Shown in pieces: positions 48,863 to 53,505 of a stretch of 64,000 bases of DNA. This DNA comes from an uncultured Eubacteriales bacterium (lineage in GTDB: Bacteria > Bacillota > Clostridia > Peptostreptococcales > Anaerovoracaceae): assembly GCA_902776285.1 (NCBI GenBank), contig CACYPK010000009.1, forward strand, positions 1 through 64,000. The letters are read 5' to 3'. A model generated the notes under the pieces. It was not told the origin of the DNA and did no database searches. It was given only the letters and a program-made list of their open reading frames with translations. The position numbers and the translations under genes are program-made. Numbering within the stretch: position 1 is the first letter of the stretch; each line of letters opens with the position of its first letter.

Positions 48863-48931
48863 GAACTTTTGTTCGGAAAAATGTTGACATGTATCGAACA
48901 AATGTTTATAATTCAAGCAGAACAAATGTTT
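48863..48931. promoter_or_regulatory. Three LexA (DinR)-type operator boxes
   Basis: Box 1 is GAACTTTTGTTC (48863-48874), a perfect GAAC-N4-GTTC. Boxes 2 (48896-48907) and 3 (48920-48931) both read GAACAAATGTTT, one base off the palindrome. Box 2 fills the promoter spacer, box 1 lies just upstream of the -35, and box 3 covers the start-site region. This layout would let LexA block RNA polymerase completely until DNA damage. No lexA gene is in the window, so the regulator's identity rests on the match to the known Gram-positive consensus. Confidence 0.88.
48884..48912 (+). promoter_or_regulatory. Full-consensus sigma-A promoter of the SOS-type gene
   Basis: TTGACA (48884-48889) and TATAAT (48907-48912) both match consensus perfectly, with a 17-base spacer. 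Such a strong promoter is typical of genes held off by a repressor. Transcription should start near 48919, about 48 bases before the ATG. Confidence 0.9.
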
Positions 48932-48966
48932 TAGATGTTTTGTCATTGAAGAAAACGGTGAACGAC

Positions 48967-49281
48967 ATGAAAGATAACAGAAGACATCATTACAGAATAG
49001 TTGATCCGGTCAGGTTCTTCCTGGCTGTTGTAATAAGCATCATGATACTTATCTTTGCGGGATACAGCGTAATAGGAGCCGCAAGGGTCCAGGCTGCTGC
49101 CATCCGCACATATACCCAGGTGACCATACAGGAAGGAGATAATCTCTGGAATCTGGTCAAGATGTACAATCCTGACTCGCATATCGATATAAGGGATGCC
49201 ATATATGACGTATATGAGATCAACGATATTGATGAGAGCGACATCAGGCCGGGGGAGAAGGTATTCATCCCTATCTATTAA
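48967..49281 (+). CDS. yneA: YneA-like SOS cell-division inhibitor (membrane anchor plus LysM)
   Basis: This 104-aa protein has a basic N-terminus (MKDNRRHHYRI), one membrane segment (about residues 19-42) and an extracellular LysM domain (about 53-102) with QEGDNLWNLVK and PGEKVFIPIY. Size, layout and triple LexA-box control match Bacillus YneA, a short-lived protein that delays septation during DNA damage. The open frame extends to an ATG at 48889, but that lies inside the -35 box, so the start must be the ATG at 48967. In Bacillus yneA is next to lexA; here it is not. Confidence 0.87.
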   Translation: MKDNRRHHYRIVDPVRFFLAVVISIMILIFAGYSVIGAARVQAAAIRTYTQVTIQEGDNLWNLVKMYNPDSHIDIRDAIYDVYEINDIDESDIRPGEKVFIPIY

Positions 49282-49582: not shown

Positions 49583-49612
49583 TTGAAAACGATTTCACAA
49601 AAATCTTATAAT
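49583..49612 (+). promoter_or_regulatory. Probable sigma-A promoter of the surface-structure locus
   Basis: TTGAAA (49583-49588) and TATAAT (49607-49612) are separated by 18 bases. It lies about 97 bases upstream of the coiled-coil gene and would drive that gene and signal peptidase I. Confidence 0.65.
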
Positions 49613-49708: not shown

Positions 49709-50020
49709 ATGTCTAGAGCGGAACGTACAAAAAAAGAAAACTCGCCTGAAAACGATCTTTCAAAACTCAAAAAGAAAGACCTGCTTGAGATAATGCTCAG
49801 GCAGGGAGAAGAGATCGACTCCCTCAGGGCGCAGGTATCCGAACTTCAGGCAAAACTTGACAACAGAGATTTTGAGCTCAGCAAGATAGGCAATATAGCG
49901 GAAGCGTCACTTGTGGTCACCAATGTATTTGAAGAAGCTCAGAAAGCCGCTGTTATCTATCTGAGAAATGTCAAGCGCATAGCTGAGCAGAATGCCGATG
50001 ATACAGGGAGCCGCAAATGA
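49709..50020 (+). CDS. Small coiled-coil protein, unknown function
   Basis: This is a 103-aa soluble protein without signal peptide. A charged N-terminus (MSRAERTKKENSPEND) is followed by a coiled coil (about 19-56: KKKDLLEIMLRQGEEIDSLRAQ, then VSELQAKLDNRDFEL as seen) and an amphipathic helical tail. The frame opens at 49643, but the ATG at 49709 is preferred because AAAAAGG lies 8 bases before it. I do not recognise a named family. Similar small coiled-coil proteins are found beside signal peptidases in Clostridia. It overlaps the peptidase gene by 4 bases (ATGA), suggesting a functional link. Confidence 0.78.
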   Translation: MSRAERTKKENSPENDLSKLKKKDLLEIMLRQGEEIDSLRAQVSELQAKLDNRDFELSKIGNIAEASLVVTNVFEEAQKAAVIYLRNVKRIAEQNADDTGSRK

Positions 50021-50616
50021 GGACCGACCCCGCACAAAACAAAGAAATGATCGCGCTCCCGGAGACTCCCGAGATACGCGAGGCCTACGAGAAGGTTTCC
50101 TATCTTGACAGGCTCAGAAAGTCGATTATCAGTACCACGAACATCCTGATAGTAGTGGCCGCGCTGGCGATACTGGTGGCGATGCTGTTCCTGCCGGTAC
50201 TGCGCATATACGGAGAGTCCATGAACGCCACGCTGAAGAGCGGAGAACTGGTAGTATCGGTAAAAGGATCGAAGTTCAAGACAGGGGATATCGTAGCTTT
50301 CTACTATAATAATAACATCCTCGTTAAACGCGTCATGGCCAACTCCGGCGACTGGATCGATATCGATCTTGACGGCAACGTATACGTCAATCAGCAGCTC
50401 GTAGACGAACCGTACCTGACGGAAAAGGCATTCGGCGAACCGGACATAGATTTTCCTTATCAGGTGCCTGATGAAAGAGTATTCGTGCTGGGAGACAACC
50501 GAAGCGTGTCCATAGACTCAAGGCACAGGGCCGTCGGATGCGTGACGTCTGAACAGATAGTAGGAAAGATAGTATTCAGGATCTGGCCGCTTACAAGGAT
50601 AGGGCCGGTCCACTGA
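50017..50616 (+). CDS. lepB: Signal peptidase I
   Basis: The 199-aa type I signal peptidase has one N-terminal membrane helix (about 42-63), nucleophile Ser68 in GESMN, general-base Lys104 in LVKRVMA, and the conserved GDNRSVSIDSR motif (about 165). The Lys makes it the prokaryotic Ser-Lys type, not the SipW type that has His. Its place directly before the pilin locus suggests it processes these secreted subunits, as dedicated peptidases do in some pilus islands. It is coupled to the coiled-coil gene by a 4-base overlap. Confidence 0.93.
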   Translation: MRTDPAQNKEMIALPETPEIREAYEKVSYLDRLRKSIISTTNILIVVAALAILVAMLFLPVLRIYGESMNATLKSGELVVSVKGSKFKTGDIVAFYYNNNILVKRVMANSGDWIDIDLDGNVYVNQQLVDEPYLTEKAFGEPDIDFPYQVPDERVFVLGDNRSVSIDSRHRAVGCVTSEQIVGKIVFRIWPLTRIGPVH

Positions 50617-50632
50617 ATGTCAAAAAAAGTGT

Positions 50633-50850
50633 CGTCAGATGACGGTAACTGTGACTGCACAGTTGCTACCATAAATATAAGTATGATGGCATATATCAGG
50701 CTTTGGTCAAAACTCCGCAGACTCTGAGGGGAGGCCTGCGGGTAATGATACCCGGGCTGCCGAGGGTAAGAGGCAGCGCAAAAACAATTTTGCCCTTCGG
50801 GGCATGAACTATGGCCGCGAGGCCATTAAACAAAATGGGCCGATTGGCCA
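50633..50850 (+). ncRNA. Hairpin-rich 5' leader of the pilin gene, unassigned class
   Basis: The 272 bases between lepB and the pilin gene hold a string of hairpins: CGTC-AGAT-GACG (50633-50644), a 9-bp stem (50645-50666), CGGGTA-ATGA-TACCCG (50739-50754), GCTGCC/GGCAGC (50756-50777), TGCCC-TTCG-GGGCA (50791-50804), ATGGCC-GCGA-GGCCAT (50811-50826) and a GGCC-GATT-GGCC stem (50836-50850). CCGCAG (50715-50720) can instead pair with CTGCGG (50736-50741), competing with the CGGGTA stem. The UUCG and GCGA tetraloops imply a selected RNA fold. I could not match it to any riboswitch I know. A TATAAG at 50676 may be part of a weak promoter. Confidence 0.6.
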
Positions 50851-50888
50851 TAGTAATATGCCTGATGAGGGCAGAAAGGAAGGTTTTT

Positions 50889-52346
50889 ATGAAACACATT
50901 AAAAAAGTTGTAACTCTGTTTCTGACTTTTGCGATGGTGCTGGCAATGAGCGTTTCAGTATTCGCTGCTGGTAATCATACTGTAACAGCTCCATCCGATA
51001 GGGCTAACCACACTTATCAGATCTATCAGGTGTTTACCGGTGACGCTGACGGCAACGCACTGACAAACCTGAAATATGGCTTAAATGCTGTGGGAGAAAC
51101 AGGAAAAGTAGTAAGCCAGGCTGATATGGAGAAGTTAAAAACAATTGAGGGGAAAACATATGCTGATGATCAGGCTAAGATTGCCGATTTAACTCAATTT
51201 GTAAATTTAACTGGCACACCAATTGCCGAAATCGGTAAGGGAAAAGAAGCATCTGCATCGTTAGCTGAAGGTTACTATATCATCAAGGATACAGATAACT
51301 CCCTTCAGGATCCTGACACGTATACACTATATATGTTTAAAGTTCTGAAAGATGACCTTACATTAGAGCCGAAGGATTCAACGACTGAATCTGATAAAAC
51401 TATCGGTGATTCTGCCAAGATCACAGACACAGATATCGGTAAGGATGTGCCGTACACTCTGACAGTTAAGCTTCCGGCGAACTATGCGGATTACAAGGAT
51501 TTCTATCTGAACTTCGTCGATGATATGTCAAAGGGCCTCACCTACAATGGCGACGCCAAAATCTTCTACGGAGCTTCTGATACAGAAGGAACAGCTATAA
51601 ACTTCGCTGCTGTTTCCGGAACATCTTATACAGGTGGTCAGAAGTACGAGTATAAGATTGCCGATCTCAAATCCGTTGATAACGATTTTGCTAAAGCTTT
51701 AAAGGGCGGAGATGTCGTAAAGGTCACCTATACTGCAAAAGTCAACAACAACGCTGTAATTGGCGAAGCCGGAAATCCTAACAAGTTCCACGTTGATTAC
51801 TCAAACAATCCGAATCAGACAGGTGATGGAAACCCTGGACACACACCGGATGACACAACTATCGTTCTGACATTCAAGACAATCCTCAACAAGGTTGACG
51901 GCGATGGCAACGCACTTACAGGAGCTGACTTCAAGCTTGAAAAGAAAGCTGATGATGGTACTTGGGTTGTAGTTGACAGAAAAGAAGGAACATCTGCAGG
52001 TTCTCAGTTCTCATTCAATGGTCTTGGGCAGGGAGAATACCAGCTTACAGAGACTGCAGTCCCTACCGGCTATAATGAGATGGATCCTAATCCATTAACT
52101 TTCACAATCAGTGCTGAATATAGTATCGAAGGAGATAAAGCTACAGTGTCATCACTTACTGGCACGGCATTAGAGTTTACATCGGACACAGAAGCTGGAA
52201 CACTGACTGCTGACATTGAGAACAATTCCGGCGCCACACTTCCTTCGACAGGTGGTATCGGTACGGTCATCTTCTATGTATTCGGTTCACTGCTCGTGAT
52301 CGGATGCGGAATCGTTCTTATCTCCAGAAAGAGAACGAACAACTAA
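50889..52346 (+). CDS. LPXTG-anchored major pilin (SpaH/EbpB-type, isopeptide domains)
   Basis: The 485-aa protein has a Sec signal peptide (cut after SVFA, about residue 26) and a fimbrial D2 isopeptide domain with VPYTLTVKLPANY and FVDDMSKGLTYNG. The backbone-pilin block HVDYSNNPNQ follows, then a SpaA-type domain LNKVDGDGNALTGADFKLEK with the E-box YQLTETAVPTGY, and a sorting signal LPSTGG, membrane segment and RKRTNN tail. It is probably the shaft subunit polymerised by the next gene's sortase. The ATG at 50889 follows AAAGGAAGG; an upstream frame from 50811 lacks a signal peptide and runs through leader hairpins. Codon use is more A+T-rich than neighbours. Confidence 0.93.
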   Translation: MKHIKKVVTLFLTFAMVLAMSVSVFAAGNHTVTAPSDRANHTYQIYQVFTGDADGNALTNLKYGLNAVGETGKVVSQADMEKLKTIEGKTYADDQAKIADLTQFVNLTGTPIAEIGKGKEASASLAEGYYIIKDTDNSLQDPDTYTLYMFKVLKDDLTLEPKDSTTESDKTIGDSAKITDTDIGKDVPYTLTVKLPANYADYKDFYLNFVDDMSKGLTYNGDAKIFYGASDTEGTAINFAAVSGTSYTGGQKYEYKIADLKSVDNDFAKALKGGDVVKVTYTAKVNNNAVIGEAGNPNKFHVDYSNNPNQTGDGNPGHTPDDTTIVLTFKTILNKVDGDGNALTGADFKLEKKADDGTWVVVDRKEGTSAGSQFSFNGLGQGEYQLTETAVPTGYNEMDPNPLTFTISAEYSIEGDKATVSSLTGTALEFTSDTEAGTLTADIENNSGATLPSTGGIGTVIFYVFGSLLVIGCGIVLISRKRTNN

Positions 52347-52490: not shown

Positions 52491-52623
52491 CATTTATCTA
52501 ATACGGCTTATTTGCAGAATGCCCTGTACGGGCCTGCGGTTTCTGATCGGTCTATCAGGGACGGATCAGGCTGGATCAGTTTCCGGAATTTCGTACAAAG
52601 GCAAAAGGAAAAGTTATCAGGTA

Positions 52624-53505
52624 ATGAAAGCATGGATACGTAAGAATCTCGTAACAGTATTGATGGCGGCAGGAATGGCTGTCGGCGTCTTCCTGCTAGC
52701 ATATCCTTCTGTAGCTAATTACTGGAATTCATTTCACCAAACGCGCGCGATAGCTTCCTATACCGAGGCTGTCAGCCATATGAGCAAGGATGAATATGAT
52801 TCCGTTATGAAGGAAGCAAGGGACTATAATAAGCGGCTTGCTGAAACAGGGATGCGATGGTCAATGACGGATGCTGAACTGGCGGAGTACAACAACACTT
52901 TAACGATAAAAGGCTCACAGATCATAGGCTTTGTAAGTATTCCCAAGTTCCATGTCCGTTGCCCTATATATCACGGTACCGATGAGGCGATCCTTCAGGT
53001 AGCCATCGGGCATCTGGAACCATCATCGCTTCCGGTAGGAGGGGAGAGCACCCACTGTCTTATATCCGGACACAGGGGTCTTCCGTCGGCCAGGCTTTTC
53101 ACAGACATCGTCAAGATGAAGGAAGGCGACACCTGGACCATATCGGTCCTCAACGAGACGCTGACATATGAGTGCGACCAGATAAGAACGGTCCTTCCGG
53201 ATGACCTGTCAGATCTACAGATCATAGAAGGCGAAGATCTTTGCACACTTATTACTTGTACGCCATACGGAGTCAATACTCACAGGTTGCTTGTCAGAGG
53301 ACACCGAATACCAAATGTTAATGGAACAGCGGATATCACGGCGGACGGCATACAGATCGAGCCGATATACATAGCCCCGGTCCTCGCAGTACCGTCGATA
53401 ATACTGCTGCTTATACTACTATTTATATCTACGAGAAGAGCAAAACGTTTCAACTCAGAAGACTTTAAAAAGCTATACCTTGAAGAAAAGGGACTCGGAA
53501 AATGA
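52624..53505 (+). CDS. srtC: Class C (pilin-polymerising) sortase
   Basis: This is a 293-aa sortase with an N-terminal membrane segment (about 13-32) and a C-terminal one (about 249-269), the usual class C layout. The catalytic triad is intact: His150 in SGHRGLP, Cys212 in TCTPYG and Arg221 in HRLLVRG. A lid-type segment precedes the core (MRWSMTDAELAEYN). It should join pilin subunits through their LPSTG signals. The frame is open from 52519, but the ATG at 52624 gives a normal membrane-anchor start. It overlaps the next gene by 4 bases. Confidence 0.94.
   Translation: MKAWIRKNLVTVLMAAGMAVGVFLLAYPSVANYWNSFHQTRAIASYTEAVSHMSKDEYDSVMKEARDYNKRLAETGMRWSMTDAELAEYNNTLTIKGSQIIGFVSIPKFHVRCPIYHGTDEAILQVAIGHLEPSSLPVGGESTHCLISGHRGLPSARLFTDIVKMKEGDTWTISVLNETLTYECDQIRTVLPDDLSDLQIIEGEDLCTLITCTPYGVNTHRLLVRGHRIPNVNGTADITADGIQIEPIYIAPVLAVPSIILLLILLFISTRRAKRFNSEDFKKLYLEEKGLGK

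Follow-up and report, generated by a model that had tools for sequence, protein, structure and literature searches.

A pilus is a polymeric surface fibre, and its subunit should far outnumber its signal peptidase. How can two proteins needed in such unequal amounts be produced when their genes appear to share one operon? The question is posed by a locus on the first 64,000 nucleotides of contig CACYPK010000009.1 (assembly GCA_902776285.1) from an uncultured Eubacteriales bacterium; the whole of this stretch is called the window. Here, a signal peptidase gene and a pilin gene are separated by a leader of 272 bases, counted from the peptidase stop to the pilin ATG at 50889. The elements of the locus are as follows.

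49583–49612, + strand: promoter-like site TTGAAA-18-TATAAT with 11 of 12 consensus matches, upstream of a small ORF, lepB and the pilin gene
50017–50616, + strand: signal peptidase I gene (lepB/sip type; Pfam Peptidase_S26, 110 bits), upstream of the leader in the same apparent operon
50617–50888, + strand: the whole lepB–pilin leader, most likely intercistronic
50874–50883, + strand: Shine-Dalgarno stretch GAAAGGAAGG, identical in nine of nine leaders
50889–52346, + strand: major pilin, LPXTG-anchored backbone (Pfam GramPos_pilinBB, SpaA and Gram_pos_anchor)
52519–53505, + strand: sortase, downstream of the pilin gene (Pfam Sortase, 73.4 bits; ORF as listed, the true start may lie further in)

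In the region that begins 400 nt before the leader and ends at the pilin ATG, no sigma-70-like promoter was found at seven of the nine loci that carry the leader; the remaining two each show a single match, and the positions of these are unrelated. An initial annotation of this DNA had considered that transcription might start downstream of the leader; a sequence scan found no promoter-like site within the window's leader. A terminator-like site or attenuator is likewise absent from its + strand. Because there is no conserved promoter between lepB and the pilin gene, a promoter-like site lies upstream and a terminator is lacking, the leader is most likely intercistronic, as judged from the sequence. 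The site at 49583–49612 is the likely operon promoter, read as a consensus match only, with eight promoter-like sites found in the whole stretch and 4.4 expected. A perfect TTGACA-17-TATAAT at 48884–48912 (+ strand) overlaps the listed start of ORF 48889–49281, which suggests that the true start of this ORF lies further in. The lack of a terminator also bears on the idea of an antitermination leader of the LoaP/NusG-paralogue type for a long pilus operon. A hairpin-rich RNA near the head of such an operon would suit this role, yet each of the eight leader-bearing genomes encodes a single NusG-domain protein (101–104 bits), as do leader-less genomes, and no specialised NusG paralogue is seen at Pfam level. 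We regard antitermination as highly improbable.

The leader folds well beyond chance. Positions 50633–50888 reach a folding energy of −106.2 kcal/mol, compared with −74.05 ± 4.59 kcal/mol in dinucleotide shuffles (z −7.0), none of 200 shuffles folds as well, and four homologous leaders gave z values of −3.6, −4.8, −4.0 and −6.5 in the same test. This bears out the initial annotation, which had placed a structured leader in front of the major pilin, and the hairpins it quoted (UUCG and GNRA tetraloops, ATGGCC/GGCCAT arms, CCGCAG/CTGCGG, CGGGTA/TACCCG) all lie where it had put them. The string of hairpins it described is present, but the first ones (50633–50671) belong to a 5' part shared solely with the 88%-identical sister G030. 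At the gathering score, Rfam gave no match in the window's leader and none in 11 loci (eight leader-bearing ones and three pilin loci without the leader), in line with the earlier view that the RNA falls outside known families. At E up to 10, ceN28 scored highest in the leader, with 17.3 bits against a cut-off of 70, followed by a fragment of a group-II intron with 17.0 bits against 35; both are chance-like. A likeness of the conserved core to the PyrR-binding hairpin was dropped because the Rfam PyrR family is absent even at E 10. An in-frame start upstream of the pilin ATG was also rejected, the frame being open in some leaders and, by reading, closed in others. Searches of the open-access literature showed no published account of the leader, and the word pilin is absent from the main text of PMC8040213.

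Two domains can be distinguished, and their parts are listed here.

50705–50752, + strand: domain A, comprising an outer helix P0, P1 and the core GACTCTGAGGGGAGGCC at 50720–50736
50705–50709 with 50746–50752, + strand: P0, assigned by eye
50715–50720 (CCGCAG) with 50736–50741 (CTGCGG), + strand: P1
50739–50754, + strand: alternative hairpin CGGGTA/TACCCG (arms 50739–50744 and 50749–50754), which shares 50739–50741 with P1 and excludes it
50756–50777, + strand: hairpin P2, GCTGCC/GGCAGC, with 85.3% of cells paired and three pairs changed on both sides
50791–50873, + strand: domain B, four local hairpins or one extended rod, just upstream of the Shine-Dalgarno stretch
50791–50804, + strand: hairpin a, with a UUCG cap
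50811–50826, + strand: hairpin b, with a GCGA (GNRA) loop
50838–50849, + strand: hairpin c
50859–50873, + strand: hairpin d
Rod pairing: a with d', a' with d, b (50809–50816) with c' (50846–50853), and b' with c

How widely is this element distributed? Nine leaders of 187–323 nt are found in eight genomes from two genera of one family, all nine between the same signal peptidase gene and a pilin gene. Relatives in the genus of the window's bacterium turned up in a DNA search, and a peptidase search of 47 genomes of that genus gave eight close loci in seven genomes (at least 79% identity, the window's included), each of them with the leader; one genome, G014, has two peptidase–pilin loci (C47, C49; L042, L037) with a leader at both. 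Domain B of those eight loci served to build a covariance model, R1, which matched strongly only there in the 47 genomes. Among 345 genomes of the order, searched with stricter filters at which weak matches are lost, it identified blind one further strong locus, in another genus (G213, 93.9 bits), where the leader again lies between the same peptidase and a pilin. In 349 genomes of the family, under the same filters, R1 is strong at the nine loci only (83–101 bits), with one match at each, so the leader is not a mobile repeat element. Weaker matches were left out of the count; some reach 18–23 bits, in six genomes of the genus, and one more, in G014, has 20.1 bits, while those at 24.9–27.6 bits in G371, G337 and G207 are not at pilin loci. 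Seven of the best 80 of 161 peptidase-related loci have the leader, all within the set from the genus genomes. R1 found no other locus at 14 bits or more on the sense strand over 81 sources; this search covers all 80 loci, including the 33 in which the ORF script failed to give a usable peptidase end or following gene. Four related lepB–pilin loci, with lepB 79–81% identical, have no R1 match and spacers of 47, 52, 55 and 125 nt, and the leader is therefore dispensable for such operons.

In a lepB tree of 23 rows, the nine leader-bearing rows fall on one side of one branch (support 85/78), with the window and G030, G067 and G014b, and G022 and G003 as pairs. This is consistent with a single origin of the leader. 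A single origin and a narrow range of nine loci would also agree with a functionless relic, kept by recent common descent. Against this, the lepB proteins of the first eight loci diverge down to 81% identity to that of the window while the stems still pair and the core stays fixed, and the second genus was found blind; a relic is accordingly given little credence. The leader is a genuine structured RNA of narrow range outside any catalogued (Rfam) family.

Domain A combines a constant core with variable stems. The core, ACUCYGAGGGGARG (14 nt), is fixed in six of the nine leaders, and the surrounding stem sequence varies with pairing kept. In these six sequences, P1 and P2 together have 90.9% of cells paired, compared with 39–64% (maximum 63.9%) in slid controls, and six pairs with changes on both sides. 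The covariance check proposed in the initial annotation, Rfam followed by a model from homologous leaders, thus yielded nine loci and compensatory changes in domain A. Model R2, representing domain A and run with the stricter filters, recovered the six loci that have the core, and its other matches are weak. Of the matches under 27 bits, L149 and L158 alone contain the core when up to two mismatches are allowed, and each has two; seven weak rows without a locus were set aside. The other three leaders (G035, G022, G003) have different hairpins in place of the core and keep domain B. The proposed switch between P1 and CGGGTA/TACCCG is real in the window but fares less well elsewhere, the CGGG-type hairpin being clear in three, weak in one and absent in two of the six core-bearing leaders (sequences read by eye). 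As further observations on this region, the lepB stop of G014a lies only about ten bases from domain A, and at one G014 locus the same core is enclosed by a P1 stem of quite different sequence. The L038 and L039 leaders, which lack the core, form a different long hairpin in the domain A region; TGATCCGGG is common to L038, L039 and L041 and is possibly a variant core.

Domain B offers another kind of alternative. Near-identical ATGG(G)CC/GGCCAT arms occupy 50811–50826 and 50835–50851, and both a rod of 24–35 bp and the four-hairpin fold are predicted to be possible in all nine leaders, with the rod more stable than the local set by 5.5–19.5 kcal/mol in every case. Hairpin b has its GNRA loop in eight of nine leaders, and the spacing from domain B to the Shine-Dalgarno stretch is near-fixed. 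When the hairpins were held fixed, 7, 0, 0, 6, 5, 1, 9, 16 and 14 of 300 randomisations gave as stable a rod in the nine leaders; when the rod was held fixed, 0, 1, 0, 17, 27, 2, 0, 0 and 10 of 300 gave hairpins as stable. By these computations, each fold of domain B is more stable than expected with the other one kept, the nine results not being independent because the nine sequences are related. In alignment A6, which was made on a rod-structured model and favours the rod, the local set pairs 83.5% of cells with four pairs changed on both sides, and the rod 85.8% with three. Shuffles reached the paired percentage of the rod in 21 of 500 cases and its number of changed pairs in 82 of 500; for the local set the figures are 1 and 18 of 500. 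Domain B pairing therefore receives weak covariation support, with no choice between rod and hairpins. Many unpaired cells lie in helix d and helix a–d', partly from a one-base alignment shift. Among the aligned leaders, domain A shows good covariation, and that of domain B is weak. According to the fold models, the conserved alternative of the leader is that between domain B rod and hairpins, not that between P1 and CGGGTA/TACCCG.

Could such a palindrome act at the level of DNA, in the form of a cruciform or of protein-binding sites, so that the folding of the RNA is a by-product? R1 does match the opposite strand at 20–40 bits. At the same places, however, the sense strand scores 83–101 bits, and the GNRA loop, the near-fixed Shine-Dalgarno spacing and the compensatory changes in domain A all speak for RNA; nor is there a conserved promoter nearby to regulate. 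A DNA element is therefore very unlikely. Similarly, GGA-containing hairpins near the start codon of a filament subunit, read from the sequence, bring to mind CsrA-type translational control, as for flagellin in Bacillus. CsrA (PF02599) was found in none of the eight leader-bearing genomes, several of them incomplete drafts, against 3 of 14 controls including E. coli and B. subtilis, and we assign this explanation almost no weight.

More depends on the accessibility of the ribosome-binding site. In the minimum-energy fold of domain B alone, the AGGAAGG of the Shine-Dalgarno stretch is unpaired in all nine leaders. In whole-leader minimum-energy folds, the stretch is partly paired in three of five (window, G067, G035) and free in two, and the partners differ between folds. 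These folds, together with the fixed core of domain A, keep alive the possibility of a cis-regulatory sensor, in which the core would bind a protein or small ligand and shift domain B or free the Shine-Dalgarno stretch, changing pilin translation or decay. The unchanged core within covarying stems and the two exclusive conserved folds beside the Shine-Dalgarno stretch would agree with such a device. It belongs to no Rfam family, however, three of the nine leaders lack the core yet keep domain B, and no expression platform is conserved, since the Shine-Dalgarno partners differ or are absent and there is no terminator. We consider a sensor possible, if on balance unlikely. In a more elaborate version, which we find rather doubtful, the leader would represent a new RNA class of sortase-pilus operons for two-state pilus control, where a factor on the ACUCYGAGGGGARG hairpin sets domain B either as a rod that is cut or silenced, or as four hairpins that are stable and allow translation.

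In the reading we favour, with a probability of roughly 0.4, the leader lies between two cistrons and serves to process and stabilise their mRNA, which would lift pilin above peptidase. The position of all nine leaders between the peptidase and a pilin, the lack of a conserved promoter there, the promoter-like site upstream of lepB and the stability of both domain B folds speak for it. Among the modes of control named in the initial annotation (ligand, protein or RNA stability), RNA stability fits best because the element is free of terminators and embedded in what appears to be an operon; there is no sign of a ligand. Transcription from a promoter upstream of lepB would yield a primary transcript that spans lepB, leader, pilin and sortase. 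The domain B rod, next to the pilin Shine-Dalgarno stretch, is a possible substrate of RNase III or RNase Y, and a double-strand or structure-specific endonuclease would cut it. As the halves of the rod are nearly palindromic, the cut would leave each product with two hairpins, a and b in the case of the upstream one, c and d at the 5' end of the pilin mRNA; these product hairpins fold in silico, and their use as caps is what we propose. With hairpins at its end, the pilin mRNA would be protected against 5' exonuclease while its Shine-Dalgarno stretch stays available, so that pilin would be made in excess over the signal peptidase. That the core of domain A is fixed points to a bound factor. 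The domain A hairpin probably serves as a docking site for a protein or nuclease controlling the extent of processing; this is the least certain step. Several points weigh against the processing reading. A fixed 14-nt core exceeds the needs of a plain stabiliser, the predicted Shine-Dalgarno pairing in three of five whole-leader folds would suit translational control, and, among the sequences compared, covariation in domain B is weak and four related loci do without the leader; in addition, the leader lies 5' of the presumably abundant gene, unlike the mainly 3'-protecting stem-loops of clostridia discussed below. If the reading is true, the leader would embody a self-capping cleavage design that sets a subunit ratio post-transcriptionally in little-studied gut and rumen bacteria. 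It is a small, defined and testable element that comes with nine natural variants and natural leader-less controls.

Related devices are known from other bacteria. In the papBA operon of E. coli P pili, processing and differential stability raise the pilin mRNA over the upstream cistron. This is a Gram-negative system of chaperone-usher pili and involves RNase E. In the proposed reading the pilin would likewise be favoured over the upstream cistron, a likeness at the level of mechanism. In C. difficile, the type IV pilin gene pilA1 is preceded by a c-di-GMP riboswitch, a known aptamer class. Both are structured RNAs before a pilin gene in Bacillota; unlike the pilA1 riboswitch, the present leader has no match to any c-di-GMP family in Rfam.

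Closer parallels come from clostridial and staphylococcal mRNAs, as far as the relevant portions of the reports describe them. In the cip-cel operon of Ruminiclostridium cellulolyticum, intergenic stem-loops are cleavage signals that protect both product ends (PMC10311766), and in one case a cut on the upstream side of the stem-loop raises the abundance of the transcript that follows (PMC10311766; PMC4423207). Clostridial stem-loops of this selective RNA processing and stabilisation (SRPS) are described as acting mainly by 3'-end protection (PMC4423207). Fold computations and the terminator scan identified in the leader stable stem-loops without a terminator U-run, as in SRPS stem-loops. The cip-cel SRPS, in those portions of the text, separate genes of a single operon that encodes a multi-subunit extracellular structure, as the leader appears to do, and most of them likewise lack a U-run; they differ in that most cip-cel loops protect 3' ends, whereas the leader lies 5' of a presumably abundant subunit. 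The leader further departs from the SRPS as described there in its conserved 14-nt core and its two-way rod/hairpin palindrome, and its cleavage is putative. In the cspA mRNA of S. aureus, a long hairpin in the 5' UTR is cleaved by RNase III; the shorter terminal hairpin that remains belongs to an mRNA that is more stable and better translated (PMC3386247). The leader has the same arrangement in silico, a long hairpin just upstream of the Shine-Dalgarno stretch from which a cut would leave a short 5' hairpin. According to the sections of that report on the hairpin, cspA differs in that its leader heads a separate transcript and forms a structure that inhibits at the ribosome site, whereas the pilin leader appears intercistronic; the two are likened by layout. 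By the best reading, the leader is a known kind of device in which the two-way palindrome and the fixed core are unusual.

Conserved stretches occur at other loci as well. A different pilin leader of 62 nt is shared with 84% identity by two distant Clostridia loci (L066:1689–1749 and L086:3813–3873); it contains AAAGGAGG and CCTCTGATCTCGACGAA and has no Rfam match. Conserved gaps downstream of the peptidase at L049, L052, L059 and L092 show 72–80% identity over 71–220 nt, and these precede the next gene chosen by the script, so that unlisted coding sequence could be included.
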